Positions 1-21,758 of a stretch of DNA of 64,000 nt are shown piece by piece. The notes under the pieces are model-generated. The model saw only the letters and a program-made list of their open reading frames with translations. It made no database searches and had not been told where the DNA came from. The translations under genes and the position numbers were made by a program. Positions within the stretch are counted from its first letter, which is position 1. Each line of letters starts with the position of its first letter. Origin of the DNA: Dyadobacter luticola (GTDB lineage Bacteria > Bacteroidota > Bacteroidia > Cytophagales > Spirosomataceae); the NCBI RefSeq assembly GCF_005860805.1, contig NZ_VCEJ01000002.1, positions 1,844,375 to 1,908,374 on the forward strand, given 5' to 3'.

Positions 1-876
1 GCCGCCCGCGGCCGTGGTATTGAGCGCGCCCATGAGGTTACCCTCGCGCAGGCAGTCTTCCAGCGGCGCCCCGGACATGTATTTTTGAATAAAACCTGCA
101 TTGAAAGAATCCCCCGCCCCGATCGCATCCACAAAATGCGGCACCTCAAAAGCGGGAACGGATACCTCCTCGTCACCACAAATGCCCAAACTGCCTTTTC
201 TCCCCATTTTGAGCGCCAGCGTATTCATGTAAGGCCGGAGCTTTTCAATGCCGTGGCCGATTGAATCTGTCCTGGTCAGCGCCAGTAATTCTGCTTCATT
301 TGGCATAAAAACATCCACATAAGGCAGGCAGCGCGCATAGTCGAAAGCCCACTGCTCGGTAGGGTCCCACTGCAAATCCAGCGAGGTGGTCATGCCGGCC
401 GCGCGGGCGTTTTTCAGGATCTGCTCAATGTCTTTTAAAAGTCCTTTTTGCAAAAAAAGGCTTGATATATGTAAATGCTGGTAATCCGAAGGTGTTTCAA
501 AGGGAATGTGATTGATTGTCAGCGTATTCATCGCGCCCTGGTAGGTAATGTTGGCACGGTCCTGGGCGTAGTTCATCACCAGCGTGCAGCCTGTTTTCTG
601 GCCTGCTACCCGGGTCACATGCCGGCGGCTGACCGACTTTTTTTCAAGCTCATTTAAAATAAAATCCCCGAAATAATCATCCCCTACCACCCCGCAGAAA
701 GTCGTATCCACGCCCATCGCAGCACTGTTTGCCGCCATAATCGCCGAAGAACTTCCCAGGCACAGATCCATTTCCTCCGCGAGCAGCTCTTTGCCCACCT
801 GCGGAAAAGCCTGGATTTTATTTAAAATCAGATCCACATTCAGCTCGCCTGCTACCAGTAGTTTCGGGGTTATCAT
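1..876 (-). CDS. PfkB-family carbohydrate kinase (partial, C-terminus beyond window)
   Basis: This is a ribokinase/PfkB-type sugar kinase, expected to phosphorylate a sugar or sugar phosphate with ATP in the cytoplasm. Reading down from the ATG at 874-876 gives 292 uninterrupted codons, and the frame runs off the left edge. The N-terminus LLVAGELNVDLI and the C-terminal signature DAIGAGDSFNAGF are visible; Asp256 in GAGD is the expected catalytic base. Family members are usually 300-340 residues, so only the last part is missing. It starts 20 bases after the agaS-like gene on the same strand and is probably its operon partner. With AgaS as neighbour, a tagatose-6-phosphate kinase role is the best guess (inference); a ribokinase or fructokinase role cannot be excluded. 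Confidence 0.9.
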   Translation of the reverse strand, partial: MITPKLLVAGELNVDLILNKIQAFPQVGKELLAEEMDLCLGSSSAIMAANSAAMGVDTTFCGVVGDDYFGDFILNELEKKSVSRRHVTRVAGQKTGCTLVMNYAQDRANITYQGAMNTLTINHIPFETPSDYQHLHISSLFLQKGLLKDIEQILKNARAAGMTTSLDLQWDPTEQWAFDYARCLPYVDVFMPNEAELLALTRTDSIGHGIEKLRPYMNTLALKMGRKGSLGICGDEEVSVPAFEVPHFVDAIGAGDSFNAGFIQKYMSGAPLEDCLREGNLMGALNTTAAGG

Positions 877-896
877 ATATGCTGTTTTTCAAAAAC

Positions 897-2045
897 CTAC
901 TCTTTATAAATATTCACGCCCTCCACAACCCTGCTGATCGACCCGGAACTGGACGGACTGTCGGGATCAATGCCCAGATGCAGCGCGCTGTAATAACCCA
1001 GCAACTGTCCGACCAGCGTGGCCGCGATCATCTGATAAGGATTTTGCGGATCAATGCTTAGGTCGATTTTGCTGCTGTTGGGTAGCGAAATGTCGTCCAC
1101 GCCCCCGATTTGCAAGCAGGTGATTTCCCGGCGGTCCCGCGCAATGTCCTCCGCCAGATCGCGCTCGTAGCGCATGATGTGCGGGTTTCTTGAAAACAGG
1201 TACACTATAAGCGTATTTTCATTTACAAAAGCCCGCGGCCCGTGCCGGAAAGCCAGAAATGAGTCCGACATGCATACCAGTTTTCCGTCGGTCAGTTCGA
1301 GCAATTTCAAGTGACATTCTTTGGCGATCCCGAGATTTTCGCCGGAGCCCAGGAACACTACCCGCTCGAAACCTTTCAGTACCAGCGTTTCCAGCAGGAA
1401 TTTTTGTTTTAAAATCGTATTGCCGTGTTCCGCCAGGCGCTGGATTTTTTCTGCTTCTTTTTCCAGATCATCGATATGCGCCACAAGCAGCACGCTCAGC
1501 AGCATGCAGGTAAAACTGCTCGTCATCGCCAGGCTCTTATCATTGGTTGCCTCGGGCAGTACGATGCGGTAAATTCTTTGCGGCGCGACGGTATCCATTT
1601 GCGCCAATGTGCCCTCACCATTGCAGGTGATAATCAAATGATAAAGCTCGTCGCAATGTGCATCGGCCAGCTTCACCGACTCCGCGCTCTCCGGACTATT
1701 GCCCGAGCGGGCAAAAGATATCAAAAGCGTCGGCACCGGGCGGATAAAAATGGATGCGGGATGTGTGACGATCTCCGTAGTGGGTACCGCCTGCACCGGC
1801 CTGCGCCATATTTTTTGCAATGTTCCCTGGGCCGAATCACCGATGAATCCGGAAGTGCCTGCGCCGGTCAGGATGATCCGCAGGTTTTCGTTCTGTAAAA
1901 TCGGATTCAGAAAACGGCTGATCTCGCTGCTATTTTTCTGGATTAATTGGTATACCTGCTGCCATAAGGCCGGCTGGGACAGGATTTCACGTTGGGTGTG
2001 TGCTTCCCCACCGCTTTTAAGCACACTGATGTCATTTTTTTGCAT
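897..2045 (-). CDS. agaS: AgaS-like SIS-domain sugar-phosphate isomerase/deaminase
   Basis: The 382-residue protein has two SIS (sugar isomerase) domains and closely resembles enterobacterial AgaS, which converts D-galactosamine-6-phosphate to tagatose-6-phosphate plus ammonia. Visible landmarks are ILTGAGTSGFIGD and SFARSGNSPES in the first SIS domain, VVFLGSGENLGIAKE in the second, and FRHGPRAFVNE near the end. Length matches AgaS (about 384 residues). The start ATG at 2043-2045 is first in the frame. It is cytoplasmic and appears to be the first gene of an operon with the PfkB kinase, which would be the next step (tagatose-6-phosphate kinase). An AT-rich inverted repeat lies upstream at 2127-2161. 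The exact substrate (GalN6P, GlcN6P or another amino sugar) is inferred from resemblance only. Confidence 0.88.
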   Translation of the reverse strand: MQKNDISVLKSGGEAHTQREILSQPALWQQVYQLIQKNSSEISRFLNPILQNENLRIILTGAGTSGFIGDSAQGTLQKIWRRPVQAVPTTEIVTHPASIFIRPVPTLLISFARSGNSPESAESVKLADAHCDELYHLIITCNGEGTLAQMDTVAPQRIYRIVLPEATNDKSLAMTSSFTCMLLSVLLVAHIDDLEKEAEKIQRLAEHGNTILKQKFLLETLVLKGFERVVFLGSGENLGIAKECHLKLLELTDGKLVCMSDSFLAFRHGPRAFVNENTLIVYLFSRNPHIMRYERDLAEDIARDRREITCLQIGGVDDISLPNSSKIDLSIDPQNPYQMIAATLVGQLLGYYSALHLGIDPDSPSSSGSISRVVEGVNIYKE

Positions 2046-2126
2046 TATTAAAGCGGTAATTAGAAGACGGTTATATTGATTCTGAAACGTAATGTAATTT
2101 CATTTCAAATTAAACACCATAAAACG

Positions 2127-2162
2127 AAAGTAAAAAGTATTTTAAACCTTTCTTTTACTTTA
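2127..2162. promoter_or_regulatory. Inverted repeat with CTTTC half-sites in the agaS / S9 peptidase divergent gap
   Basis: AAAGTAAAA at 2127-2135 and TTTTACTTT at 2153-2161 form a perfect 9-base inverted repeat with a 17-base spacer. The right arm reads CTTTC-TTTTA-CTTTA (2148-2162), one base off a CTTTC-N5-CTTTC direct repeat. It lies about 80-100 bases upstream of both divergent starts. The AT-rich composition means chance cannot be excluded; an operator for the DeoR-family regulator at 15313 is an inference. Confidence 0.4.
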
Positions 2163-2267
2163 TTTATTGTTACACCTATATTGCAGGAGAATATATCGTA
2201 TTTTAGCACGAAGGCATCTATATAATAAGGTGCATCTGGCAAGACAAACACTCCTAAACCCACTTTT

Positions 2268-4250
2268 ATGATTCCACCGGAGACCAAGGCCCCAGCGCGC
2301 GGACTTGTGACAGATGATTTGCACAAAATCCGAAAGGTAGGCGCGCCGCTGCTTTCTCCTGCGTCCGACGATCTGGTATACCACGTGTCGGTAGCCTATC
2401 TGGACGGAAATGAGTACCATGATGAAATCATACTTTTGCTGGCTGATAGTGCTGAGAAACAGATTTTGGGTCACGGGAATGCGCATGCATGGTCGCCGGA
2501 CGGAACTGAGATACTCTATGAAACCGAAAGTGGGGAACTGCACATTTATGCTTTGCAGGATCAAAAAAGCCGGTTTCTAGCGCAGCGTCACGACTCTACC
2601 TATTTTTTCAATCACCTGGCCGACAAGAATTGCACCTGGTCGCCCGACGGAAAATACATTGCTTACCTAAGCGCCGATATTACTGGCGAAGAAAACTCCG
2701 AAACCGAAGAAGTACGGATTTTTGACGACTTGCTTTATAAAACAAAAGGCGGCCGCGGCAGGCCAATGTATGCCGATCGTGCCTATACGCACATTTACGT
2801 AATTCCTGCGGCGGGCGGTACGCCGGTCACTCTCACGCTAGGTACATTCAACGAACATTCCACCACCTGGTCGCCCGACAGCCGTCACATTGCATTCATC
2901 AGCAACCGCTCATCGCAGCCGGATGATACCCAGCAGAGCGACGTATGGAAAGTGGATATTGAAACCAAAACCATCACCCGCCTGACCGAACATACCGGGT
3001 TAACTTACCAGCCAACCTGGTCGCCGGACGGGAAAAATATTGCATTTCTGGCTGTTTCGTGCACATTTGGTACCAATGACAGTACCGCCGAAGACACGCA
3101 CATTGCGCTCATTTCCGCAGAAGGAGGCCAATTCCACTATATCACCAAAACCTTTGACCGGCGGATCGAGCACCTGCGCTGGCATCCTTTGGGAAAGTAC
3201 ATTTATTTTCTCGCAGGTGATCAGGGTTGCACTTCCATCTATCGAGTAAATGTTGAAAATGAAGCAGTTGAAATCATTCAGGGAGGTTCCGGCTGCATTA
3301 CAGAATTCTGCCTGGATAGCAGCGAAGAGGATTTTGTTTTTGTAAAATCAGATACAAACCATCCGGCAGCGCTTTTTAAAACGATAAATCAAAGCAAAGA
3401 GATCGAGCAGATCACGCACGAAAATGCAGATTGGCTACAAACAAAAAATTTGAGAGAAGCTGAAACATTCTGGTTCCAAAGTTTTGACAGCACGTTTGTG
3501 CAAGGCTGGCTGATGCCGCCGGTTGATTTTGATGAAACGCAACATTCTCCGCTCATTCTGGTAATTCACGGCGGGCCGCATAATATGTTTGGCTATGATT
3601 TTGATGAGCGCATGCATTTGCTTTCGCAGGCCGGTTATGCGGTGGTTTTTATCAATCCAAGAGGAAGCCACGGCTATGGACAGGCATTTTCCAATGGTAC
3701 GCTTGGAAATTGGGGCGGCGGTGATTATCAGGATTTAATGTCGGGTGTGGACTTCGTTTTGGAACAAAATGCATGGCTGGACCGGGATCAACTGGGCGTG
3801 ACCGGCCAGAGCTACGGCGGCTTTATGACCAACTGGATCGTCACCCAAACTTCCCGCTTTAAAGCCGCGGTCGCCGATGGCGGGCTCAGCAACCTGGTCA
3901 GTTTTGCGGGCACTTCTTTATATCATTCTTTGATGGAATCGGAGTTTGGCGGCCGGGCCTACGAGCAGTTTGACCTGTTATGGAAATGGTCGCCGCTGCG
4001 GAATGCCGGCAAAGTAACTACGCCCACATTGCTCCTGCACGGCGAGACCGACAACGAAGTACCATTTTCCCAGGCCGAAGAAATGTACGTCGCCCTTAAA
4101 AAAGCGGGCGTAAAAACAAGACTTATCCAGTACAAAGGTGAAGGCCACGGCTGGCGGCCCGATTTGAAACCCCGCAGCAAAGCCGACCTGCATACACGCA
4201 TGATCGCGTGGTTTGATACTTATGTAAAAGCAACCGTTAATGAGCAGTAA
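2268..4250 (+). CDS. S9 family (prolyl oligopeptidase-type) serine peptidase
   Basis: The 660-residue protein has an N-terminal WD40-like (PD40) beta-propeller, with TWSPD(S/G) repeats recurring roughly every 50-60 residues up to about residue 300. A C-terminal alpha/beta-hydrolase peptidase domain follows. The nucleophile motif GQSYGG places Ser near residue 515; HGETDNEVP and GEGHGW near the C-terminus carry the expected Asp and His of the triad. No signal peptide is evident, so it is probably cytoplasmic and trims short peptides (acylaminoacyl- or dipeptidyl-peptidase type). The start is the ATG at 2268, preceded by a CCTAAACC element. Its last 11 bases overlap the transporter gene, indicating co-transcription. 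Substrate preference cannot be read from the sequence. Confidence 0.93.
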   Translation: MIPPETKAPARGLVTDDLHKIRKVGAPLLSPASDDLVYHVSVAYLDGNEYHDEIILLLADSAEKQILGHGNAHAWSPDGTEILYETESGELHIYALQDQKSRFLAQRHDSTYFFNHLADKNCTWSPDGKYIAYLSADITGEENSETEEVRIFDDLLYKTKGGRGRPMYADRAYTHIYVIPAAGGTPVTLTLGTFNEHSTTWSPDSRHIAFISNRSSQPDDTQQSDVWKVDIETKTITRLTEHTGLTYQPTWSPDGKNIAFLAVSCTFGTNDSTAEDTHIALISAEGGQFHYITKTFDRRIEHLRWHPLGKYIYFLAGDQGCTSIYRVNVENEAVEIIQGGSGCITEFCLDSSEEDFVFVKSDTNHPAALFKTINQSKEIEQITHENADWLQTKNLREAETFWFQSFDSTFVQGWLMPPVDFDETQHSPLILVIHGGPHNMFGYDFDERMHLLSQAGYAVVFINPRGSHGYGQAFSNGTLGNWGGGDYQDLMSGVDFVLEQNAWLDRDQLGVTGQSYGGFMTNWIVTQTSRFKAAVADGGLSNLVSFAGTSLYHSLMESEFGGRAYEQFDLLWKWSPLRNAGKVTTPTLLLHGETDNEVPFSQAEEMYVALKKAGVKTRLIQYKGEGHGWRPDLKPRSKADLHTRMIAWFDTYVKATVNEQ

Positions 4251-5124
4251 AACAAATAGTTGGCTGATTTTTGTCATCATTCACGTCGTCTTCATCGGCG
4301 TCTGGGGCGCGGTCATCGAAATCCCCGAAAAGAACGGTTTTCCTGCCACACTGGGTTATGTTGTTTGGGCATTGACGATGATACCAGCCTCGCTGGCCGC
4401 ATTAAAAATGAAAGGCTGGAAGCTCGATTTCAACAAACGCGCAATGCTGTGGGGCGGAGCTGCGGGACTGCTTGGAGCGGGCGGACAGCTTGTTCTTTTC
4501 TTCACGCTCCGCATTGCCCCGGCTTATCTGGTGTTTCCGCTGCTCTCACTCACACCCGTCGTGACTATCCTGATGGCAGTTTTGCTGCTCCACGAAAAAA
4601 CAGGAAAAATGGGCTGGATCGGTGTGGGTTTGGCACTGGCGTCTATTTTTATGCTCTCCTACCAGCCGGCGGGTGCGACGCAGGTGAGCGGCTATACCTG
4701 GATGCTGCTGGTCGCGATCCCGCTCTTTGCCTGGGGCGCGCAGGGATACATTATGCGGTTTGCGAATGAAATTATGTCGGCCGAGAGCCTGTATTTTTAC
4801 ATGATGGCCACGTCGGTGCTGCTGATCCCTTTTGCATTGTATCTCACCGATTTCAGCCAGCCCATCGAGTGGGGACTAAAAGGGCCTTATTTATCTGCTA
4901 TCATCCAGTCGCTCAACGCATTTGGCGCACTTTGTCTGGTGTATGCATTCCGGTATGGAAAGGCGATCATCATTGCCCCGATCACTACTGCACTTTCACC
5001 GGTACTCACCGTGGCACTCTCGCTTGCGTTGTACCAAACCATTCCCCACCCCGTCATCGTTGCCGGCATTGCGCTGGCGATCGTATCCGCAATTCTCATG
5101 GGTTTTGAAGAAGTAAAAAGTTAA
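4240..5124 (+). CDS. EamA/DMT-family inner-membrane transporter
   Basis: The 294-residue protein is almost entirely hydrophobic, with about ten predicted membrane helices arranged as two EamA repeats (roughly residues 5-140 and 150-290). This is the standard drug/metabolite transporter layout. The second half contains PITTALSPVLTVALSLAL, typical of the last helices. The ATG at 4240 lies inside the end of the S9 peptidase gene (overlap ATGAGCAGTAA), so translation is probably coupled. DMT proteins export or import amino acids, nucleotides or sugars; nothing here fixes the substrate. Pairing with a peptidase would be compatible with export of amino acids or dipeptides, but that is speculation. 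Confidence 0.9.
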   Translation: MSSKTNSWLIFVIIHVVFIGVWGAVIEIPEKNGFPATLGYVVWALTMIPASLAALKMKGWKLDFNKRAMLWGGAAGLLGAGGQLVLFFTLRIAPAYLVFPLLSLTPVVTILMAVLLLHEKTGKMGWIGVGLALASIFMLSYQPAGATQVSGYTWMLLVAIPLFAWGAQGYIMRFANEIMSAESLYFYMMATSVLLIPFALYLTDFSQPIEWGLKGPYLSAIIQSLNAFGALCLVYAFRYGKAIIIAPITTALSPVLTVALSLALYQTIPHPVIVAGIALAIVSAILMGFEEVKS

Positions 5125-5137
5125 ATGAAATAAAAAA

Positions 5138-5152
5138 GAAAGATTTCGAAAG
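5138..5152 (-). promoter_or_regulatory. CTTTC-N5-CTTTC direct repeat upstream of the secreted-protein operon
   Basis: The plus strand reads GAAAG-ATTTC-GAAAG, i.e. CTTTC-GAAAT-CTTTC on the minus strand: two identical pentamers exactly ten bases apart, one helical turn. From memory, the enterobacterial AgaR (DeoR family) operator has CTTTC repeats of this kind. The site lies 108 bases before the operon start at 5261, downstream of the transporter gene. A weak -7-like TATATTAG follows at 5182-5189. Regulatory function is inferred. Confidence 0.45.
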
Positions 5153-5230
5153 TTATTATATGCTGATTATGCTATTTCTTTTATATTAGCATGATTAAAA
5201 TATGGTTTTCCTAAACACTTAATCTTTTCG

Positions 5231-5252
5231 CCTAAACCTCTAACCCTAAACC
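5231..5252 (+). promoter_or_regulatory. Double CCTAAACC leader element
   Basis: CCTAAACC occurs at 5231-5238 and again at 5245-5252, ending eight bases before the TTG start at 5261. A related CCTAAACA is at 5210-5217. The same octamer precedes the starts at 2268, 7700 and 9659. It is not complementary to the 16S anti-Shine-Dalgarno sequence. It may be a leader feature affecting translation or simply lineage-typical leader composition. Confidence 0.35.
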
Positions 5253-5260
5253 CCTGCCCT

Positions 5261-6472
5261 TTGAAAAGTATATGCCGTGTGTGGCTACTCTTGCTGTGTG
5301 CCGTCAGCACTTTCGCCCAGAAACCTGCCATTTCCGAAAAACAAGTAGCCTTTATCGAATACCCAGACTTTCCCGAGGCGCATTCCACCTGGGGTTCGAT
5401 CGGGTATAATGCGGCTGCCAATACGGTGCACATAGGGGTGACGAACCATGCCAATAACATTGGTCTTTATACTTTCAATCCGGTACAAAATGTGATGAAG
5501 CTCAATGGTTTCATCCGGGATATGGCGAACCTGCGCCCCTACCAGTGGCAGGGAAAAATACATTCTAAAATCGTGGCGGCTCCCGATGGTTCCATTTACT
5601 TTTCGACGGACGGCGGCGAGTCGCGGGAGGAATATCTGATGGAGCATCCGCAGGGTTATGCGGGCGGTTTTATCATGAAGTGGGATCCTAAGAATGGTTT
5701 GAAAAATCTGGGGATCGGCATGCAGTATGAGAGCATCAAGGATGTCGATATCGACCCGAAAACAGGAACATTATATGCGATTACTTACCCGCAGGCGCAT
5801 TTTTTAGTTTATAATCCTGAAAAAAATAAAATGCGCGACCTTGGCCGACTGGCCAGCTCGCACGTGCCGCGAGTACTGTTTACAGATTGGTGGGGAAACT
5901 GCTATTATGTGGACTGGCGGCAGCGACTGGTGAAATATGAAAAGGACAGCGAAAGCCTGGTTTTCGCCCGGGAAAGTTTGCCCGCATTTCCCGGCACGCC
6001 TGGCTCCAAAATCATCACCGGCATTACCGCTTTTGCCAAAGACGAGGCCAAAGGTATCATTTACCTGATTACGTACGGCGCAAAAGTAATTGCATTTCAT
6101 CCTCAGAAAGAAGGCATTGGCAAAGTAGAAGACCTGGGCGGTGTGTTTGATACCGGCAAAGAAGACGCTTGGGGACCGTATGTGCCGAACCTGAACATTG
6201 GCAAAAACGGAAAGCTTTATTACATCATTGGCGGCCACGACAATTATGTTTTGAAAGACAAAACGGTCCTGATGGAATTCGATCCGGCAACGAGGAAATC
6301 GGTCATTTTAAAAACCTATCCTTCGACGGAGATCACAGAGGCCACCGGCTATGACATCCGGGACAAAGACGGCAACCTCTACTTCGCGGCCCGCCGCAAC
6401 CCTTCCGGCGTGGGCGATAACACCCGCCCTTTTATGATCCAGTTCAACCCTGAAAAAGAAATCCGGAAATGA
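5261..6472 (+). CDS. Secreted beta-propeller-like protein of unknown function
   Basis: The 403-residue protein has a clear signal peptide (MKSICRVWLLLLCAVSTFAQ) and then repeated short motifs of the kind GxLYxITYPxxxFLVYNP and GKLYYIIGG, typical of a six- or seven-bladed beta-propeller (NHL/SMP-30/kelch-like). I do not recognise a catalytic motif. The start is taken as TTG at 5261: no in-frame ATG lies upstream or near the signal peptide, and the signal peptide begins right at that codon. The stop overlaps the next gene by four bases (ATGA), so it is the first gene of an operon. Its neighbour 6469-7671 shares the LYxISYP pattern and may be a distant tandem paralogue. Periplasmic or surface glycan binding is a possible but unproven role. 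Confidence 0.8.
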   Translation: MKSICRVWLLLLCAVSTFAQKPAISEKQVAFIEYPDFPEAHSTWGSIGYNAAANTVHIGVTNHANNIGLYTFNPVQNVMKLNGFIRDMANLRPYQWQGKIHSKIVAAPDGSIYFSTDGGESREEYLMEHPQGYAGGFIMKWDPKNGLKNLGIGMQYESIKDVDIDPKTGTLYAITYPQAHFLVYNPEKNKMRDLGRLASSHVPRVLFTDWWGNCYYVDWRQRLVKYEKDSESLVFARESLPAFPGTPGSKIITGITAFAKDEAKGIIYLITYGAKVIAFHPQKEGIGKVEDLGGVFDTGKEDAWGPYVPNLNIGKNGKLYYIIGGHDNYVLKDKTVLMEFDPATRKSVILKTYPSTEITEATGYDIRDKDGNLYFAARRNPSGVGDNTRPFMIQFNPEKEIRK

Positions 6473-7671: not shown

Positions 7672-7687
7672 ACATGCGAGATCTATT

Positions 7688-7695
7688 CCTAAACC
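7688..7695 (+). promoter_or_regulatory. CCTAAACC leader element before the GH123-like gene
   Basis: The octamer sits four bases before the ATG at 7700. The surrounding 15 bases TCTATTCCTAAACCT (7682-7696) are repeated exactly at 9630-9644, before the next gene, which is unlikely by chance in two gaps of about 30 bases. Confidence 0.35.
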
Positions 7696-7699
7696 TGCT

Positions 7700-9622
7700 A
7701 TGACCCGATTTGCAAAACTGATCCTTTGTTTTTTAACATTAACCGCATTTACCAGTGCGAATATATCGTTTGCTGCCGATCCCTGGCTGCTGCGCGCATT
7801 GCCATCCTCCGTACGGCTCGACCCGGTGAATAATGAGATTATCGAACACCGGTTCAAAGGCGTGCCGGCCAATGCATTGGGCAAGGGAAATCTGCTGGAT
7901 AAAAACTGGATTTACGACGGCAAGCAGGTGGCATTGCACGGCGCGCGCGGGGAATATGTCTCGTTTCAGCTGGTTTTAACCAATGCGTCGGATGCCGAGC
8001 TGACGGGCATTCAGCTGGAAATGACGCCTTTTAAAAATGGCAGTACAGAACTGAACATTCAACCCGAGCTTTTTCTGGAATGGTCGGTGAATGTGCTGAG
8101 TACCAGCACCGGCTACCCAAGGGCCACCCTCGGCAAAGGCTGGTATCCCGATGCGCTGATCCCATTTAAATTTCTCCAAACTGACTCCGCCAAAGTCCAC
8201 GGCCGCTGGGTGTACCCTTTTAACCTGCCTGACTTTAATAACCGCATTACCAACCAAAAGTCACAGATTGTTTGGGTGGATCAGTTTATTCCGCTCGATG
8301 TGCAGAAGGCAAAACCTGGCACCTATCAGAGCATAATCACGGCCACAATTGGTAATGTTAAAAAGCAAATCCCGATTAGCCTGACAGTCTGGGATTTTGA
8401 GCTGCCAAATGAAAATGCTTTCAAAGCCAGTTTGCAGCATGAAGGGTTTTTGAGCCGGATGGATGAAAAGCAGGAACTGGCAGTCTATCAACTTTTTAAA
8501 AGAAACCGCATTTCGCTCATGGACCCGACTTATGATCCGGAAATCCAGGTCAAAAACGGGAAAGTGGACATTCAGTGGGATAAGTTTGATAAGCGACTAA
8601 AAAAATACCTCACCGGCGCTGCTTTCACCGAGGCGCAGGGCTACAAAGACGGCCCCGGCTACGGCGAGCCGCTGGAAACATTTGCATTGCCTTTTGATGT
8701 GTATGGAAAACATGGTACTGCCGGCTGGCCGGACATTGGCAAGCCCGAAGTAGAGCGCAAGGCGGCCAATCAGGCGATTTACACGAGCGCGATCAAGCAG
8801 GTGCGTCAGCATTTGCTGCCGATGGTGGACCCGAAAAAAACGCTGCTGACGGTTTATCTGAATGGTCTGGACGAATCCTATTTCCCGGAAGCCTGGTCGC
8901 GGATGGTGTTTTACGGGAATTTGTTTAAAAAAGAATATCCCGAGGCCAAGTTCCGCGTGGATGGCGGCTATAATAAAGATGCGATGGATGTCATCGGTAA
9001 ATCCGTCACCGACTGGGCTTCGCATACCATCAACTACAACATTGATACTGTACAAACGTATCAGCAAATGGGCATCAAAGACTGGCTTTACGGTCCGATG
9101 CTCTATGAAGCAAAACTCAACAGCTGGGTCGGCAGCTCGACATTTATCGATTTGCCACTGGTCAACGACCGGGCGATCAGCTGGGCGTGCTGGAAATACA
9201 AAACCTTCTCCTGGATCAGCTGGGGCGTGGGCGCCGGCTGGGAACGCGGCTGGTATGACCCTGAATCCTGGAAAGATTTTTACAAAGAGGCCTCCGAAGC
9301 CGACGCCGAATTCACCTACCGCACATTCAACGGAAACGGCTCGGTGATTTACAAGCCCGGCATGGTGCCGAATGTCTCCGAACCCTGCCCGTCGATCCGG
9401 CTGAAAACTATGCGCGACGGGGTGCAGGAATACGAATACCTACGCCTGCTGGCAAAGATCGACGGCAATTCCAAACGTGCAGATGCGCTTGTAGATCAGC
9501 TCATTAAAGAACCTTTTGGTGAAAAATCCATCGGTAACCTGGATGTATGGAGCTACGATCAGGAGCAGTGGCACAAAGTCCGGATGGAGCTGGGTGCGCT
9601 CATTTCTGCCGGCAAAAAGTAA
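7700..9622 (+). CDS. GH123-like / DUF4091 secreted glycoside hydrolase
   Basis: The 640-residue protein starts with a signal peptide (to about residue 25). An N-terminal beta-sandwich with FQLVLTN (about residue 90) is followed by a C-terminal TIM-barrel-like domain of the DUF4091/GH123 type. The pair Asp391-Glu392 in YLNGLDESYFPEAW fits the DE motif where GH123 places the stabilising Asp and the acid Glu. The C-terminal signature SIRLKTMRDGVQEYEYL is characteristic of the family. Characterised GH123 enzymes are beta-N-acetylgalactosaminidases using substrate-assisted catalysis. That fits the AgaS-like gene nearby, but many DUF4091 proteins are uncharacterised. It lies 28 bases after the propeller gene in the same operon. 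Confidence 0.85.
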   Translation: MTRFAKLILCFLTLTAFTSANISFAADPWLLRALPSSVRLDPVNNEIIEHRFKGVPANALGKGNLLDKNWIYDGKQVALHGARGEYVSFQLVLTNASDAELTGIQLEMTPFKNGSTELNIQPELFLEWSVNVLSTSTGYPRATLGKGWYPDALIPFKFLQTDSAKVHGRWVYPFNLPDFNNRITNQKSQIVWVDQFIPLDVQKAKPGTYQSIITATIGNVKKQIPISLTVWDFELPNENAFKASLQHEGFLSRMDEKQELAVYQLFKRNRISLMDPTYDPEIQVKNGKVDIQWDKFDKRLKKYLTGAAFTEAQGYKDGPGYGEPLETFALPFDVYGKHGTAGWPDIGKPEVERKAANQAIYTSAIKQVRQHLLPMVDPKKTLLTVYLNGLDESYFPEAWSRMVFYGNLFKKEYPEAKFRVDGGYNKDAMDVIGKSVTDWASHTINYNIDTVQTYQQMGIKDWLYGPMLYEAKLNSWVGSSTFIDLPLVNDRAISWACWKYKTFSWISWGVGAGWERGWYDPESWKDFYKEASEADAEFTYRTFNGNGSVIYKPGMVPNVSEPCPSIRLKTMRDGVQEYEYLRLLAKIDGNSKRADALVDQLIKEPFGEKSIGNLDVWSYDQEQWHKVRMELGALISAGKK

Positions 9623-9635
9623 GATCAAGTCTATT

Positions 9636-9643
9636 CCTAAACC
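9636..9643 (+). promoter_or_regulatory. CCTAAACC leader element before the DUF5107 gene
   Basis: Part of the 15-base TCTATTCCTAAACCT (9630-9644), identical to 7682-7696. It ends 15 bases before GTG 9659, and 39 or 60 bases before the alternative ATGs. If the element must be close to the start codon, this favours 9659. Confidence 0.3.
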
Positions 9644-9658
9644 TTTCATACTTTCCGA

Positions 9659-12600
9659 GTGAGTGCCTTTTTTACCTTCTCTATGTTGCCGTCAAATGCC
9701 AGGATGACCCGTTTTGTCCTGGCTTTGATGGTGGTTTCGCCTGCTTTGCACGCGCAAAAAGCCAGCATTTCGGAAAAGGTGCAGGCCATGAAGACGTATC
9801 CTTTTTCGGATCCAAGTCCGCTGCCAGTGATGGGAATTGGAAAAAAGGTCGCGCCGTTTTATCCATATTATGTTTTTGATGGGTATACCAATAATAGCAC
9901 GACGCAAAACTGGAAAATTGTTGAGCTGGAAAATCCATACATCAAAGTGCAGGTACTGCCGGAAGTGGGTGGAAAAGTGATGGGGGCGACTGAAAAATCG
10001 ACGGGTGAGGAATTTGTGTACGCCAATCATGTCATGAAATTCCGCGCCATCGGCATCCGCGGACCGTGGACGAGCGGCGGCATTGAGCACAACTTTGGTC
10101 TGGATCTCGGCCACGCGCCCTGGGCAGCCGCGGCGGTGGATTATGTGCTGCAAAACAATCCGGATGGCAGCGTAACCTGCGTGGTCGGCGGCCTCGATCT
10201 GGGTTCCCGCACGCAGTGGCGCGTCAAAATTGTGCTCCCGAAAGACAAGGCTTATTTTGAAACGCAGAGCCTTTGGTACAACCCCCTGCCCTTGCATGAC
10301 TCCTATCTTTCGTGGGAAAATGCGGCTTTCCGGGCTTCGGACGATATGCAATTCTTTTTCCCGGGCACGCATCATGTGGGGCACGATGGGAATGCGAGAC
10401 CGTGGCCGGTGGATGAAAAGGGCGTGGATTTGTCTTTTTATAAAAACAACAATTCGGGCGGCGACAAGTCCTACCACGTGGTGGGGACGGCAACGAACTG
10501 GTTTGGTGGATATTGGCACGACCGGAAGTTTGGATTCGGCCACTGGTCGCCCTATTCGGATGCGCCGGGCAAGAAATTGTGGATCTGGTCGCGGGCGCGT
10601 GAAGGTGCGATTTGGGAGGATTTGCTGACGGATGCAGATGGACAATACATTGAGGCACAGTCGGGCGTGACATTCAACCAGGCGGCGGAGCGAAGCGGGT
10701 TTCACAGTCCGTATAATCAAAAATCGCTCGGACCATTTTATTCTGAAACTAAAACAGAATACTGGTTTCCGGTAAAAGGCGCGGGCGGAATGGTGGATGC
10801 TTCGCCTTATGGGACGTTGAATGTGGTGGCGGGCAAGGATAGTTTGAAAATCATCATTAACCCGATTTCCATCATTCAGGACACGCTGAAAGTGACGGTC
10901 AGCGGGAAGACGATCCTACAAAACCCGCTGCAATTGAAGCCGATGGAGGTTTTTGTAAAAACAATTCGGCTGTCGGATACTGATCAGAAATCGGTTCGCG
11001 TAAGCATTGGCAATGATCGGCTTGTATATGCGACCCGGCCTGAAAAGATTTTAGACAGACCTATCGTTTCTGCCGATAAACAAGACCCACATTCCGCAGA
11101 GCGGCTTTTTGAGCTGGGCGAAGATGAAAATGCCATGCGCAATTTTGAAGGCGCGCACCTACGTTTCCTCAAAGTTTTGGAAAAAGAGCCCACGCACAGT
11201 GGCGCATTGATCCGGCTGGCGGAGTATCATTATCGTAAAGGTGAATATGCGCAGGGACTTGATTTTGCCAAAAAAGTGTTGGCCGAAAATACCTACCAGG
11301 GCGGCGCAAACTATTTATACGGAGCACTTTACCGGAAGCTTGGCGACCTTACCAAAGCGGAAGAAGCATTGTCCGTAGCGACATGGACGATGGAATATCG
11401 CTCGGGCGCATACGCGCAGCTCGCGGGGATTGCATTGCAAAAGCAGGATTTTGAAAAAGCCGAGCACGATGCTCAGAAAGCGCTGGATTACAACCGAAAT
11501 AACCTGGTGGCCTACCAGCTTCTGGGCACGGCGCTCCGGAAATTAAATAAAATCGAAAAGGCAGCGCAGGTCTGGAAAGATTTGCTGGAAGTCGATCCAC
11601 TCAATCATTACGCACATTTTGAGCAATATCTGCTCGCGCCAACAAAGGAAAACCAAACCCTTTTTCAGCAGGCAATCCGCAATGAGCTGCCGCACGAAAC
11701 GTACCTGGAATTGGCGATGGATTATGTGAACGAGGGCCAAAATCGGGAAGCGAAAAAAGCGCTTGAACTCGCGCCCGCCTACCCTACTATATCTTACTGG
11801 CTGGCCTATCTGACGCGTGACTCGGCTGCTGGTGAGAGCAAAAAGCATTTACAAGATGCCATTCAAATGTCCCCGGAGCGGGTTTTTCCTTTTAGACTGG
11901 AAAGTATTCCTGTTTTGATCTGGGCTGAAAAACAAAATGCGCACTGGAAAAACCGCTACTATCTTGGCCTGATTTACTGGCACATTGGCGATAAGGAGAA
12001 TGCTAAAACGCAATTTGCAGCCTGCAAAAATGAGCCCGACTATGCACCGTTTTACATTGCAAGAGGCATTCTTTTCCAAGACGACGCGGTTTCAAAAGAA
12101 GAGGCGCAGCATGATTTTGAAAAAGCCAACCAGCTAAATCCCAAAGAATGGCGCAGCTGGCATTATCTGACTGAATTTTTCAATGCTAAAAATGCGCAGG
12201 ATAAAGGTCTGGAAAATGCAAAAAAAGCCTACGAGCACTTCACCGATAATCCGGTGATTGGGATTGACTACGCCAAGACGCTTTGGGGTGCAGGTAAGTT
12301 TGACGCCAGCCTGCAAGTTTTGGCAAAAACGCAGATCCTGCCGCAGGAAGGCGCACGTGAGGGGCACAATATATATCTGCTCGCCAACCTGGCGCAAGCA
12401 CTGGATTTAGCAGAAAAGAAAAAATTTAAAGATGCATTCAAATCTCTTGAAAGAGCCCGGCTCTGGCCTGAGAATCTGGGCACCGGCAAACCGCATGAAC
12501 CGGACAACCGGCTGATGGATTACCTGGCGGCCTACTGCGAAACGCAGCTGGGCCATACCCAAAACGCGGCGCAATACGAGCAGGAAATCACGAACTATTC

Positions 12601-12922
12601 GTTGCATGGCAGCAAGGAAAGTAACCGCAATGCGCTCAGTAACTATCTCGGCGTGAAGGTGCTGCAAGATGCAGGCAAAAAAGATGAAGCTTTGAAATAC
12701 CTGAATAACTGGAAAGCAGAGCAGGATTCGCTTGGAAAATGGGACATTACCCAGGGCTCGGATGCGCCGGAGGTGAAGTGGGTATTAGCTAAATCGCAAG
12801 ATGATCAGGCGCAATCGGAGCGGCTTAAACCGGAATTGATCGGGGACGATAAGTATAATCTTACCGCTTTGTTTTTCAGGATACTGGACCTCGCGGATAC
12901 ACGCAAGACTTTGAGCAAATAA
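9659..12922 (+). CDS. Secreted DUF5107 protein with TPR repeats
   Basis: The protein is 1087 residues from a GTG at 9659. In-frame ATGs at 9683 and 9704 are alternatives; the one at 9704 gives the cleanest signal peptide (MTRFVLALMVVSPALHAQ). Residues about 75-400 form a DUF5107 domain, recognisable by QVLPEVGGKVMGATEK, RGPWTSGGIEHNFG and FFPGTHHVGHDG, a fold related to galactose-mutarotase-like sugar-binding proteins. From about residue 480 to the end there are many TPR-like helical pairs (for example GALIRLAEYHYRKGEYAQGL and YLYGALYRKLGDLTKAEEAL). It sits between the GH123-like and esterase genes with gaps of 36 and 3 bases. Its activity is unknown; glycan recognition or processing on a TPR scaffold is plausible. 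Confidence 0.87.
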   Translation: MSAFFTFSMLPSNARMTRFVLALMVVSPALHAQKASISEKVQAMKTYPFSDPSPLPVMGIGKKVAPFYPYYVFDGYTNNSTTQNWKIVELENPYIKVQVLPEVGGKVMGATEKSTGEEFVYANHVMKFRAIGIRGPWTSGGIEHNFGLDLGHAPWAAAAVDYVLQNNPDGSVTCVVGGLDLGSRTQWRVKIVLPKDKAYFETQSLWYNPLPLHDSYLSWENAAFRASDDMQFFFPGTHHVGHDGNARPWPVDEKGVDLSFYKNNNSGGDKSYHVVGTATNWFGGYWHDRKFGFGHWSPYSDAPGKKLWIWSRAREGAIWEDLLTDADGQYIEAQSGVTFNQAAERSGFHSPYNQKSLGPFYSETKTEYWFPVKGAGGMVDASPYGTLNVVAGKDSLKIIINPISIIQDTLKVTVSGKTILQNPLQLKPMEVFVKTIRLSDTDQKSVRVSIGNDRLVYATRPEKILDRPIVSADKQDPHSAERLFELGEDENAMRNFEGAHLRFLKVLEKEPTHSGALIRLAEYHYRKGEYAQGLDFAKKVLAENTYQGGANYLYGALYRKLGDLTKAEEALSVATWTMEYRSGAYAQLAGIALQKQDFEKAEHDAQKALDYNRNNLVAYQLLGTALRKLNKIEKAAQVWKDLLEVDPLNHYAHFEQYLLAPTKENQTLFQQAIRNELPHETYLELAMDYVNEGQNREAKKALELAPAYPTISYWLAYLTRDSAAGESKKHLQDAIQMSPERVFPFRLESIPVLIWAEKQNAHWKNRYYLGLIYWHIGDKENAKTQFAACKNEPDYAPFYIARGILFQDDAVSKEEAQHDFEKANQLNPKEWRSWHYLTEFFNAKNAQDKGLENAKKAYEHFTDNPVIGIDYAKTLWGAGKFDASLQVLAKTQILPQEGAREGHNIYLLANLAQALDLAEKKKFKDAFKSLERARLWPENLGTGKPHEPDNRLMDYLAAYCETQLGHTQNAAQYEQEITNYSLHGSKESNRNALSNYLGVKVLQDAGKKDEALKYLNNWKAEQDSLGKWDITQGSDAPEVKWVLAKSQDDQAQSERLKPELIGDDKYNLTALFFRILDLADTRKTLSK

Positions 12923-12925
12923 TAC

Positions 12926-14953
12926 ATGATGACTTCTTCAAAACCTGCATTTCACTTTTTCAAATACAATGTCCGCCTGGCAACATTACTGACAACATTG
13001 TTAGCTTTTACCTTGGCGCACGTTCAGGCGCAGCAGTTACGGGGAAAAGGCATTATTGAAGATGGAAAACATTATAGCAAAGTATTTAAAGAAGATCGCA
13101 ACTTTCGGCTGATTTTGCCTGCGGATTACCACCAGCATCCCGAGCGGCGGTATCCGGTGATTTACTATTTTCATGGGAATGCCGGGCGGTTTAATGGTCC
13201 CGCGGAGGGGGAAGTTTCCCGCTCGGGCGAGGCGCGATATTATGATGATTTTAATGGAAACTACGAGCGCACTGGTCCGGACTCGGTTGATAATTTTACG
13301 AGCTATGTGGCTGACAATGATGTAATCATCGCAAAGTGGGATGGATATGTGCCTGCACAATATCCCCGTCCGTACGACATTGCGCCGGTGAAAGAAGACC
13401 GGCAGTTTGTTGACTATTTCCCGGAATTTGTGGAGTACATAGATGCACATTACCGCACCAAAGCGTACCGGGAAGCGCGCGCAGTTTCCGGGTTGAGCAT
13501 GGGCGGGTTTATGTCAATGCTTGTGGCTTCCAAATATCCGCATTTGCTTTCGAGCGCCTCGTTTTTCTGTCCGTCCGCTTCTTTTACGGTCGGGCCGAAA
13601 GCTTTGCAGATTTATACGCCCTTTAAAGAAATGGGGCGGAATTTTGTGGGTATGCCGATCCGAATGCACCTCGGCAGCAAGGATTTTTTGCGCCAGCACG
13701 ACCAGGAAATTGACGACGCCTATAAAACTTTGGAGCTGAATTACGAGAGCTGGCATTACGGCATCGGCTATTTCCGCGGTTTTCACAATGCGGTGAATAT
13801 CAAAAGTCAGTTTGATTTTCACATGCATTACTTCCGCATGCCGCTGGCAAAGCCGGATAAATGGCATCATATCGATGTATATCCTAACTTTTCGGTCTGG
13901 AATTATGAAGTAAAAACCGACCGGAAAATCCCAGGCTTTACCGTCCTGGACGATGTGCGGCGGGAAGGTTTTAATTTGCAAACAAAAAAATGGCTCCCCG
14001 ACGGCCCGACCGTGCCGAACCTTTTTGTGCAGATTAAGACTGACAGTATTTACGCCCCAAATGCCAATTTTGAATTAATACAACTTAACGTTGACACTCG
14101 GAAAATCTCCCGCATCAATGTCCGTAGTGACAAAAATGGCCGCATTCAGTGGCAGGGAACCAGTGAACAAACTAACATCGGAATTTACAAAAACGGGGAT
14201 CCCGGACACATTACCCTGGCAACCTATACACTCGACCGGCAGATGCCTGGTGTTGGGGAGATCGTTACATTAAATCCGCTTTTATTCAACAAAGGCGGGG
14301 CGGCGGTCGATTCGGTACGCATGGAGCTGATTGCGCAGGATGAAGATGTCGAGGTGATGGATCCCGCGATTGCGTTTGGAAAGATTTTGCAAGGTACTCT
14401 GTATGATAAGACTGCATTTAGAATTCACTCTCGGAATGCCAATCTGGACCGCGCGAAGCTGAAATTATTACTCACTTATCAAGGCAAAAAAGATCAGTTT
14501 TTGCTGGAAGTACCCTTTTATTCACCAGAAAAAACATTGACAAAATTTGAAATTGCAGATGGTCACAATGTCAATCTCGAAGTCGAAAACCAAACACGGG
14601 TCGGCGAAGGAAATGGGGACGGAACCGTCAATCCGGGCGAGTGGATCAGCATTTTTACAAAATCGGACCTGGATTCGCTGCATGATTTTGGGCTGCAACT
14701 TTTTACCGGAGATCCTTATGTCATGATGGAAAACCGACGCATGCTGTTTTTCGCCCGCGCCGACTGGTCAGGTGCGCAGCGGCTTACTTCGCAGGTGCAG
14801 ATCAAAAAAGATTGCCCGGACGGGCGTGAAATCAAATTTTATGGCATTTATGAATACCCCAAAACCGGGAACACGCGTCGGGACAGTCATGGGGCGCATT
14901 CATTTATCCATGAAACAAAGCGGGTTTCTTTTACTGTGAAAGTCAAAAAATAG
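12926..14953 (+). CDS. Secreted alpha/beta-hydrolase (esterase-D/feruloyl-esterase-like) with C-terminal beta domains
   Basis: The 675-residue protein has an N-terminal signal peptide ending HVQAQ (about residue 36). A serine-hydrolase domain follows at about residues 45-320, with VIYYFHGNAG as oxyanion-hole region and the nucleophile elbow SGLSMGGF (Ser about residue 190). A possible catalytic His is in YFRGFHNAVN. The remaining half is beta-rich and resembles Ig-like modules, with no recognised catalytic site. Such esterases often remove acetyl or feruloyl groups from polysaccharides. It starts three bases after the DUF5107 gene and ends five bases before the ACT-domain gene, so operon membership is firm. 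The true ester substrate is unknown. Confidence 0.83.
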   Translation: MMTSSKPAFHFFKYNVRLATLLTTLLAFTLAHVQAQQLRGKGIIEDGKHYSKVFKEDRNFRLILPADYHQHPERRYPVIYYFHGNAGRFNGPAEGEVSRSGEARYYDDFNGNYERTGPDSVDNFTSYVADNDVIIAKWDGYVPAQYPRPYDIAPVKEDRQFVDYFPEFVEYIDAHYRTKAYREARAVSGLSMGGFMSMLVASKYPHLLSSASFFCPSASFTVGPKALQIYTPFKEMGRNFVGMPIRMHLGSKDFLRQHDQEIDDAYKTLELNYESWHYGIGYFRGFHNAVNIKSQFDFHMHYFRMPLAKPDKWHHIDVYPNFSVWNYEVKTDRKIPGFTVLDDVRREGFNLQTKKWLPDGPTVPNLFVQIKTDSIYAPNANFELIQLNVDTRKISRINVRSDKNGRIQWQGTSEQTNIGIYKNGDPGHITLATYTLDRQMPGVGEIVTLNPLLFNKGGAAVDSVRMELIAQDEDVEVMDPAIAFGKILQGTLYDKTAFRIHSRNANLDRAKLKLLLTYQGKKDQFLLEVPFYSPEKTLTKFEIADGHNVNLEVENQTRVGEGNGDGTVNPGEWISIFTKSDLDSLHDFGLQLFTGDPYVMMENRRMLFFARADWSGAQRLTSQVQIKKDCPDGREIKFYGIYEYPKTGNTRRDSHGAHSFIHETKRVSFTVKVKK

Positions 14954-14958
14954 ATCCG

Positions 14959-15237
14959 ATGGAAAACCAGTTTGCCGGACCGAGCCGGATATCGATCTAT
15001 GCCAGCGACGTAAACAACGTTTTGAGCCGGATTTTGCAGACTTTTGGCAAAAGCCGGTTTGATGTTCATTACATTCAGATTTTCAAAACGGAAGACGAAA
15101 ACCTGAAACTGATCATCGTCGAGGCCACATTCCCGAAGGAGATGATGGCGCTGATCCTCAACCGGATCGAGAAAATCATTGAAGTGCACCGGGCTTTTGC
15201 GCATGCCGATGAAACGGAAAAGCGGCTGAACTCCTGA
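14959..15237 (+). CDS. Stand-alone ACT-domain small protein (IlvH N-terminal-like)
   Basis: This 92-residue cytoplasmic protein has no signal peptide. The stretch from ISIYASDVNNVLSRI to KIIEVHRAFAHAD matches the beta-alpha-beta-beta-alpha-beta pattern of the ACT domain that begins the acetolactate synthase small subunit (compare the generic pattern IS(V/I)YTEN.xxLLNRI ... QIEKxxxVxxV). The C-terminal half of IlvH is absent. ACT domains bind small effectors such as amino acids. It is the only clearly cytoplasmic protein encoded between the secreted hydrolases and the DeoR regulator, starts five bases after the esterase gene, and could be an effector sensor. No ilv genes are nearby. Family assignment is by eye. 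Confidence 0.65.
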   Translation: MENQFAGPSRISIYASDVNNVLSRILQTFGKSRFDVHYIQIFKTEDENLKLIIVEATFPKEMMALILNRIEKIIEVHRAFAHADETEKRLNS

Positions 15238-15312
15238 ACTTGTTCCGGCTGGCTTTTGCACCAGCATTTGCCCGAATGTTGCTACATTTACAACTAAAAT
15301 GAATTTAATTCC

Positions 15313-16071
15313 ATGAAAAAGACTGCGCAGCGTCGTTCGCTAATCTTGCAAAAACTCGATGAACTGGGTGAAGTGAATGTGAATGATTTAAGTGAAATGC
15401 TGGAAGTGAGTGAAGTTACGATCCGCAATGATCTGGACAAGCTGGAAAATAGCAATCTGCTGGTGCGGGCTCATGGCGGGGCGTTCAAAACCAACAACAT
15501 AGCCCTGACCGTTACCGAAAAAAGGAACATTAACCACGACATCAAGCGGCTGATTGGCAAGAAAGCTGTATCGCTGATCAATGAGGAAGACAGCATCATT
15601 CTGGACTCGGGCACGACGACTTTTGAGATTTCCAATAACCTCGAAAAATTTAAAAACCTGACTGTGATCAGTAATGCGCTGGACATTGTAAATAACCTCG
15701 CGCAGTACGAAAATTTGCAGGTGTATATGCCGGGCGGTTACCTGAAAGAATTCTCGATGTCGCTCGTCGGCCCGATGGCGGAGCGCAATTTTAAGCAACT
15801 ATACTGCAACAAACTTTTCCTGGGAATCGACGGTATCAAGGCCAACACGGGCTTTTTCACCCACTACATGGAAGAGGCCTACCTCAACCAGATTATGATC
15901 GACATCGCCGAAGAAGTCATCATCGTCACCGACTCCTCCAAATTCAAAAAATCAGGGCTGGCATTTATTTGTGGCTTTGATAAGATTAATAAGGTGGTGA
16001 CGGATGATAAGATTGAGGAGGCGGATTTGCGGATGCTGAAGCAGCATAATATTGAGGTGATTATTGCGTGA
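15313..16071 (+). CDS. DeoR/GlpR/AgaR-family transcriptional regulator
   Basis: The 252-residue protein has the classical layout: an N-terminal winged helix-turn-helix (about residues 6-60; VNVNDLSEMLEVSEVTIRNDL) followed by HGGAF, then a C-terminal sugar-phosphate sensor domain of ISOCOT fold (SIILDSGTTTFEISNNL at about residues 95-112; IVTDSSKF near residue 205). Family members are usually repressors released by a phosphorylated sugar. It follows the secreted operon after a 75-base gap and is probably its last gene or a close satellite. Since agaS and a sugar kinase are in the same locus, an AgaR-like role is likely. Candidate CTTTC-type operators occur at 2148, 5138 and 21741. Confidence 0.92.
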   Translation: MKKTAQRRSLILQKLDELGEVNVNDLSEMLEVSEVTIRNDLDKLENSNLLVRAHGGAFKTNNIALTVTEKRNINHDIKRLIGKKAVSLINEEDSIILDSGTTTFEISNNLEKFKNLTVISNALDIVNNLAQYENLQVYMPGGYLKEFSMSLVGPMAERNFKQLYCNKLFLGIDGIKANTGFFTHYMEEAYLNQIMIDIAEEVIIVTDSSKFKKSGLAFICGFDKINKVVTDDKIEEADLRMLKQHNIEVIIA

Positions 16072-16706: not shown

Positions 16707-16756
16707 CTATTGTATAGAATTAGTAGAACTCAAAGCTTAAAAGATTTCCACACCCT

Positions 16757-17611: not shown

Positions 17612-17645
17612 GCGAAGAGTAGAAAGCAGCCCTGTCAGTACAAAA

Positions 17646-18523: not shown

Positions 18524-18562
18524 GCGGCAAATATAGAAATTGACGCATGAACAAGACAAACC

Positions 18563-21733: not shown

Positions 21734-21758
21734 TATATTTGTTTCGATACCTTTCGAT
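21734..21758 (+). promoter_or_regulatory. SusC promoter -7 element with TTTCGAT direct repeats
   Basis: TATATTTG (21734-21741) matches the Bacteroidota -7 consensus TAnnTTTG; no convincing -33 element is seen. Directly downstream, over the expected transcription start, TTTCGAT occurs at 21742-21748 and 21752-21758, exactly ten bases apart, reading as GTTTC-GATAC-CTTTC. This resembles the site at 5138-5152 and would be well placed for repressor binding. Confidence 0.5.

Follow-up and report, generated by a model that had tools for sequence, protein, structure and literature searches.

A polysaccharide utilisation locus with a predicted galactosamine module in Dyadobacter luticola and its relatives

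The enterobacterial aga/gam system comprises AgaS, AgaR, KbaY/KbaZ, AgaA and a phosphotransferase system (PTS). In E. coli agaS is needed for the use of both N-acetylgalactosamine (GalNAc) and galactosamine (GalN), and nagA can substitute for agaA (excerpts of PMC3668189). A GalNAc pathway with the proteins AgaOMP, AgaP and AgaK is found in Shewanella (passages of PMC12118421). In Bacteroidota, polysaccharide utilisation loci (PULs) encode a SusC/SusD pair linked to members of glycosidase and esterase families. In a survey that covered 397 gut genomes, the GalNAc catabolic pathway is assigned, in the part of the article drawn on here, to Actinobacteria, Firmicutes and Proteobacteria alone (PMC5583593), and the main text of a review from 2025 on amino-sugar use in the gut holds no word starting with 'Bacteroid' (PMC12118421). 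Here we describe a locus in Dyadobacter luticola, a member of the Bacteroidota, found in a stretch of 64,000 nucleotides (contig NZ_VCEJ01000002.1, positions 1,844,375 to 1,908,374) of its 6.4 Mb genome; this whole stretch is called the window. We describe it as a PUL that carries a galactosamine module of its own. As a gene neighbourhood it is genuine, conserved and coherent in predicted function; its substrate, the assignment of its kinase and its regulation are put forward as hypotheses.

Two genes of the module lie on the minus strand. The first encodes an AgaS-family SIS protein (897-2045), a predicted galactosamine-6-phosphate deaminase/isomerase; the second encodes a ribokinase-type sugar kinase of the PfkB family (1-876; PF00294, 153.9 bits), a protein of 317 amino acids whose gene runs 78 bases past the left end of the window. 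Across a divergent promoter region (2046-2267) stands a tight plus-strand operon, whose genes overlap by as much as 11 bases or are separated by at most 136. It is headed by an S9 prolyl-oligopeptidase-family peptidase with no signal peptide by eye (2268-4250; PF00326, 171 bits) and an EamA-family transporter (4240-5124; PF00892, 85.6 bits), a candidate inner-membrane sugar importer. These two genes, between AgaS and Prop1, were overlooked in the initial annotation; every gene that it did name, in the divergent arrangement that it described, was recovered by open reading frame and domain searches. The operon continues with the predicted beta-propeller protein Prop1 (5261-6472) and Prop2 (6469-7671), a GH123-like enzyme of the DUF4091 type (7700-9622), a DUF5107-TPR protein (9659-12922; PF17128, 545 bits), an esterase-fold protein (12926-14953; PF00756, 55.8 bits) and an ACT-domain protein of 92 amino acids (14959-15237; PF13710, 48.4 bits). 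Prop1, Prop2, the DUF5107-TPR protein and the esterase-fold protein are predicted by eye to be secreted. AgaR, a repressor of the DeoR-type family, follows at 15313-16071 on the same strand.

The locus had been proposed to lack its own SusC/SusD, and this view has to be abandoned. A GH20 beta-N-acetylhexosaminidase-family protein (19224-21548; PF02838 and PF00728 above cut-off), a SusC-like TonB-dependent importer (21794-25009; PF07715 and PF13715 above cut-off) and a SusD-like surface glycan-binding protein (25039-26523; PF07980, 118 bits) are encoded on the plus strand. In this genome the block starts 3.2 kb past AgaR, with toxin-type and transposase-like genes between. Eight other genomes of the family were compared over 40 kb around the locus (29 kb in one), and in seven of them orthologues of SusC (80-93% identical), SusD and GH20 (74-81% identical) lie near it. 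We assign this SusC/SusD pair to the locus because its orthologues cluster compactly with the operon genes in two Larkinella and in Segetibacter koreensis. In the two Larkinella, GH20, AgaR (on the opposite strand), SusC, SusD, Prop1, Prop2, the GH123-like gene, S9, EamA, AgaS, PfkB and an aldolase occupy 19-20 kb, with a DUF4832 gene intervening in one (G058). Segetibacter koreensis (L049) has the same compact cluster, with SusC/SusD beside Prop1-Prop2-GH123-like and the AgaS module. Among the Dyadobacter the pair is placed to the left of the aldolase in two genomes and to the right of AgaR with GH20 in five, that of the window included. The eighth relative (G104) has a different, non-orthologous SusC/SusD pair between EamA and Prop1. 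The locus thus contains adjacent SusC and SusD homologues (PF07715, PF07980) and linked enzymes, GH20 above cut-off and the GH123-like protein by its match to a Protein Data Bank (PDB) profile. Past the aldolase, the left flank holds another SusC/SusD pair, in convergent orientation and accompanied by genes for a sigma and an anti-sigma factor (L002:5816-13044). This pair was rejected as the cognate importer, since no close orthologue stands there in the eight relatives (best 25-36% identical); one of them (G051) has in that place another SusC/SusD pair with a protein that is GH32-like by eye.

The locus shares with the enterobacterial aga/gam system an AgaS-family isomerase, AgaR and an FBA/GatY-type class II aldolase. 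It differs in having no AgaA/NagA near AgaS, no PTS gene among the genes read at the locus and no GatZ/KbaZ-like protein in this genome's cluster (by similarity comparison of AgaS loci), in possessing a ribokinase-type PfkB protein, and in the joining of the module to SusC/SusD and secreted enzymes. Like the Shewanella pathway, it is predicted to take up its sugar without a PTS, by way of a transporter in the outer membrane and a permease, here SusC/SusD and EamA. The Shewanella kinase AgaK is of the ROK type, whereas no ROK-type kinase lies near AgaS here. Compared with other Bacteroidota PULs, which share the SusC/SusD pair and the linked glycosidase-family and esterase-family proteins, it stands out because the locus itself includes a sugar-phosphate module and an AgaR of the DeoR type, and because of two unannotated secreted families. 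Neither this gene combination nor work on Dyadobacter PULs for GalNAc was found in searches of the open-licence literature. Among the papers listed on PULs with AgaS or GH123, no title or opening of an abstract matches this locus, and the only paper listed for DUF5107 concerns stramenopile genomes.

We propose, with a probability of roughly 0.7, that the locus is a PUL directed at a glycan that contains beta-GalNAc, and that it includes a galactosamine pathway in the cytoplasm and AgaR as its repressor. The sequences themselves show which genes are present, that they stay linked and that blocks upstream of them are conserved; the enzymatic steps, localisation, substrate and regulation in this scheme are inferred from the protein families. 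SusC and SusD would bind the glycan and import pieces of it. Outside the cytoplasm, degradation to GalNAc would fall to Prop1, Prop2, the GH123-like and GH20 enzymes and the esterase, along with the DUF5107-TPR protein, and EamA would bring the amino sugar into the cytoplasm. Galactosamine 6-phosphate would then arise through a kinase and a deacetylase of the NagA type, and AgaS would convert it to tagatose 6-phosphate; this would be phosphorylated and then cleaved to triose phosphates by the class II aldolase. AgaR would repress both arms of the locus until an amino-sugar phosphate appears.

For AgaS the by far best NCBIfam match is TIGR02815 (365 bits). The three nearest solved chains are labelled putative tagatose-6-phosphate ketose/aldose isomerase (E-values from 1.9e-76 to 2.4e-66), and the next-best solved match is a glucosamine-6-phosphate deaminase at 1.5e-13. 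An aldolase had been expected on the left flank, and a class II aldolase is indeed the next gene after the kinase, outside the window (L002:13066-13935, minus strand; PF01116, 284 bits). It is above cut-off for PF01116 and for the ketose-bisphosphate aldolase model TIGR00167, and it matches the GatY and KbaY models below cut-off. AgaR is 95-98% identical in six Dyadobacter relatives and 48-50% in the two Larkinella. On family membership, PfkB is a candidate tagatose-6-phosphate kinase or, more boldly, a candidate kinase of GalN or GalNAc. An alternative keeps this layout but gives AgaS and PfkB a different substrate, the phosphate of another amino sugar or of an Amadori-type compound, such as glucosamine or fructosamine phosphate, so that the glycan would not be based on GalNAc. 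AgaS does fall under the TIGR02815 cut-off, PfkB scores as a ribokinase (115 bits) and as IolC (113 bits) and higher as fructoselysine-6-kinase (65 bits) than as LacC (19.5 bits), all of these below cut-off, and GH20 enzymes can release N-acetylglucosamine. We nevertheless think this alternative unlikely, given that AgaR is above its cut-off, that the solved relatives of AgaS carry the tagatose-6-phosphate isomerase label with glucosamine-6-phosphate deaminase far behind, and that GatZ-, LacC-, LacD- and GH109-like proteins accompany AgaS elsewhere.

The best solved relative of the GH123-like protein is PDB 8k2f, an oligosaccharide-releasing beta-N-acetylgalactosaminidase (profile E-value 3.6e-25), followed by 8k2j and 8k2h. 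Its only solved relatives at an E-value of 0.01 or below are two beta-N-acetylgalactosaminidases and one beta-N-acetylhexosaminidase, and these favour, short of proof, the GalNAc-type substrate that the initial annotation had suggested. All 22 family members that were aligned share Asp391 and Glu392, and the pair aligns over an Asp-Glu of 8k2j; an Asp-Glu motif is catalytic in GH123 enzymes (excerpts of PMC11087588). The same source divides GH123 into Groups 1-4, with which the protein has in common a detectable similarity, strongest to 8k2f, and the aligned Asp-Glu pair, and from which its low similarity sets it apart. It may belong to Group 1 or to a further GH123 subgroup. From the title of the entry we take 8k2f to be the Group 1 enzyme NgaCa; the data section of PMC11087588, among the parts of that article drawn on here, names 8K2F without attributing it to an enzyme. 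Among synthetic substrates NgaCa was active only on Gal-beta1-3-GalNAc-beta-pNP and it was inactive on GA1 and Gb5 oligosaccharides, and the natural substrate of oligosaccharide-releasing enzymes such as NgaCa is stated to be unidentified (excerpts of PMC11087588).

The authors of the Group 1 study suggest, in the same excerpts of PMC11087588, that enzymes which release oligosaccharides may serve to break down exopolysaccharides and similar long-chain glycoconjugates. This is in keeping with another explanation, in which the locus recycles or remodels the exopolysaccharide of its own cell or of a neighbour instead of feeding on an external glycan. The presence of SusC/SusD, GH20 and a module that ends in an aldolase favours catabolism, and the patchy distribution in the genus (18 of 48 genomes) suits an accessory feeding locus; we regard the exopolysaccharide explanation as improbable.

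All parts of the locus are of known kinds except Prop1 and Prop2. Neither protein matched a Pfam or NCBIfam family, and profile searches of the PDB gave no relative at an E-value of 0.1 or below. The AlphaFold2 model of Prop1 is a beta-propeller (pLDDT 87, pTM 0.88), and the protein has invariant His, Arg, Asp and Glu residues. Prop2 is distantly like Prop1 (hhalign probability 93%) and is its same-strand neighbour, directly after it, in 37 of 38 loci.

Within a family sample the GH123-like protein is present in 9 of 111 genomes, and AgaS is present in those same nine. The initial annotation had proposed to check relatives for conserved gene order, and linkage with agaS is conserved: the aldolase, PfkB, AgaS, S9, EamA, Prop1, Prop2, GH123-like and AgaR genes are linked in all eight relatives, the esterase and ACT genes in six and the DUF5107 gene in five. 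Among 48 Dyadobacter genomes, 18 have both AgaS and the GH123-like protein, two have AgaS only, none has the GH123-like protein only and 28 have neither. The distance from AgaS to the GH123-like gene is 5.6-6.1 kb in 17 genomes and 10.6 kb in one. In the two AgaS-only genomes AgaS is divergent (44% identical), and AgaR, AgaS, PfkB, the aldolase and EamA are accompanied instead by GH20-type, GH109-like and amidohydrolase genes. The Fisher value for co-occurrence in the genus, 2.6e-11, is overstated because related genomes are not independent, and recurrence in other families is better support for the linkage.

A genome collection was scanned with the Prop1 alignment, with a pair of short peptide patterns as seeds. 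This gave 38 loci, which include the eight relatives. Eleven are in Dyadobacter and 27 in Larkinella, Segetibacter, Chitinophaga, Arenibacter, Daejeonella and metagenome-assembled genomes (MAGs), one of them labelled Phycisphaeraceae. Within the sequence examined, the GH123-like gene accompanies Prop1 in 26 of the 38 loci, AgaS in 17 and a SusC of any type in 21; outside Dyadobacter the figures are 15, 6 and 16 of 27. The tie between the secreted genes and agaS that had been suggested therefore holds in Dyadobacter (18 of 18) and is looser elsewhere. In Chitinophaga alhagiae and in a Bacteroidales MAG, AgaS-PfkB-aldolase-SusC adjoins Prop1-Prop2, and the MAG locus also holds a GatZ/KbaZ-like protein (PF08013, 111 bits). 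The locus is rare in Bacteroidota: when 395 genomes from across the phylum were sampled, the genome of the window was the only one in which Prop1 and the GH123-like protein were detected, and AgaS was detected in 20; these counts may be low, as only three or four first-look candidates were scored in most genomes. That these are two independent systems, a secreted operon standing by chance beside a galactosamine operon to which it is unrelated, is highly improbable: Prop1-Prop2-GH123-like loci without AgaS in the sequence examined and AgaS clusters without Prop1 both occur, but linkage is complete in the 18 Dyadobacter and the association recurs in Larkinella, Segetibacter, Chitinophaga and the Bacteroidales MAG in differing gene orders.

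The phylum sample supplied 19 other Bacteroidota AgaS loci, and 40 AgaS loci were compared in all. The 19 contain AgaR (17 loci), PfkB (18), an aldolase of the FBA or LacD type (17), SusC (12) and a GH109-like protein (13); the last was assigned by similarity to two proteins, and the four on which the Pfam GH109 C-terminal model was run were all above cut-off. Where no class II aldolase was found, L102, L103 and L104 have matches to a LacD-like class I aldolase, that of L104 above the cut-off of a tagatose 1,6-diphosphate aldolase model. EamA is near AgaS in 26 of the 40 loci, including ones without a GH123-like gene. An amidohydrolase-like protein (PF04909) is near AgaS in 16 of the 19 loci and also in L077 and L078; it is a candidate for the missing deacetylase or for another step. 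PF04909-like genes also stand beside two GH123-like loci (L053 by Pfam, L059 by eye). DUF4832-type proteins, possibly uncharacterised glycosidases, are found in or beside some AgaS loci (L055:14373-15725 by Pfam, with a weak Glyco_hydro_42 match; L088:11069-13801 by Pfam; L054:11260-12621 by similarity).

PfkB is near AgaS in 39 of the 40 loci. Trees covered 33 of the 40; six near-copies were left out, as was L098, where PfkB is missing. LacC is a tagatose-6-phosphate kinase and AgaZ has been proposed as one (passages of PMC12118421). Seven of the 19 loci have a LacC-like protein, seven a GatZ-like protein, none both and five neither, one of these (L098) ending at a contig end. Under independence the mutual exclusion has a probability of 0.016, but descent relates the loci to one another. 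Because PfkB accompanies both LacC-like and GatZ-like loci, these patterns suggest that it performs another step, most simply the phosphorylation of GalN or GalNAc. At the Dyadobacter locus PfkB may still be the tagatose-6-phosphate kinase, since neither a GatZ-like nor, in the similarity comparison of AgaS loci, a LacC-like protein was found there. A wider idea, possible although we would not bet on it, is that Bacteroidota have a GalNAc economy of their own. PfkB, not a ROK kinase, would phosphorylate GalN or GalNAc in an AgaR-AgaS-PfkB-aldolase module that is plugged into SusC/SusD loci, with LacC-like or GatZ-like proteins supplying the tagatose-6-phosphate step where present; Prop1 and Prop2 would be two new carbohydrate-cleaving propeller families, acting jointly with a GH123-like enzyme of the oligosaccharide-releasing kind on an unnamed GalNAc polymer.

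The upstream regions of several of these genes are conserved. Upstream of SusC a run of 26 bases, TATATTTGTTTCGATACCTTTCGATT, is invariant in nine of nine genomes from two genera, against a shuffled-column maximum of 8. It contains TTTCGATACCTTTCGATT, a ten-base-spaced repeat, and within it lies a candidate AgaR operator (21742-21755, plus strand). Between AgaS and S9, where CATAAAACGAAAGT is conserved, the upstream regions of 13 Dyadobacter share an invariant run of 14 bases; shuffled columns gave 9 at most. The longest invariant run is 11 bases upstream of GH20 (shuffled 4) and 9 bases upstream of Prop1 (shuffled 12), where there is no excess. A TTTCG-N4-CTTTC repeat before Prop1 (5138-5151, minus strand) is a weak candidate operator; in this reversed orientation it is present in 7 of 20 Prop1 upstream regions, all from Dyadobacter. 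Blocks of the GAAAG type and TTTCGTTTCC blocks occur between AgaS and S9 in 12 of 18 cases and before GH20 in 4 of 10. The window has three exact matches to TTTCG-N4-CTTTC against 0.31 expected, two of which precede Prop1 and SusC, and in the Larkinella genome G043 there are 70 against 34 for a reversed control. The first eight bases of the SusC block are similar to the Bacteroidota -7 promoter element TAnnTTTG, and the repeats are similar to the consensus of E. coli AgaR. From their conservation, the repeat blocks are candidate operators for AgaR, through which the arms of the locus would be tied together. The pneumococcal AgaR is a GntR-type regulator with a different operator (excerpts of PMC5018945).

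Several observations weigh against the proposed galactosamine PUL. Three family assignments are marginal or below threshold: AgaS scores 365 bits against a TIGR02815 cut-off of 529, AgaR clears NF040755 narrowly (262 against 260 bits) and the GH123-like protein reaches 21.5 bits with Pfam GH123_cat, just under the cut-off of 23.1. A deacetylase, too, had been expected on the left flank; none of the 40 AgaS loci has a NagA relative or a ROK kinase within 12 kb of AgaS, several of the stretches being shorter at one end. Two or three nagA matches are present in each of the 48 Dyadobacter genomes, with or without AgaS, and are thus non-specific; a second NagA was rejected as a locus-specific deacetylase for the same reason. 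AgaS is missing from the sequence examined at 21 of the 27 Prop1 loci outside Dyadobacter, some of which are on short contigs. Prop1-Prop2 pairs also stand outside any PUL, on Daejeonella-type contigs (L040, L041, L043), and Prop1-Prop2 is therefore not strictly a galactosamine gene set. On the regulatory side, the SusC upstream block and operator are missing in three more distant loci (L047, L049, L054). The TTTCG-N4-CTTTC pattern was chosen post hoc, being read off those same sites; at one mismatch it shows no excess in the window (7 against 7.6), and it is not enriched in the whole host genome (G000; 47 against 42 for the reversed control).

The ACT-domain protein is perhaps a conserved regulatory partner: ACT-domain proteins follow the aldolase in Segetibacter (L049:20607-21134, of the acetolactate-synthase-small-subunit type by Pfam) and in Larkinella (L023:8238-8603 and L021:7001-7351, by eye). 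Between AgaR and GH20, 16353-18559 holds a PemK-type toxin gene, a nucleotidyltransferase-HEPN gene and pieces of a YhgA-like transposase (Pfam); it looks like an insertion hotspot, because relatives carry differing small genes in that place. The YhgA/Rpn-like gene (17646-18559, minus strand) reads as two overlapping open reading frames, of which only the larger matches PF04754; it is also in two pieces in G130 and G096. Outside the locus, near the right end of the window, 61788-63887 (minus strand) encodes a GH127-family protein, a family of beta-L-arabinofuranosidases (PF07944 and PF20736 above cut-off).

The predicted galactosamine module recurs in Bacteroidota, often next to SusC/SusD. Prop1 and Prop2 are two conserved, predicted secreted families without annotation, and PfkB as a kinase of GalN or GalNAc is a testable hypothesis. 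The locus also provides a relative of the oligosaccharide-releasing enzymes together with a transporter, partner proteins and a predicted regulated pathway, which could offer a route to finding the substrate.

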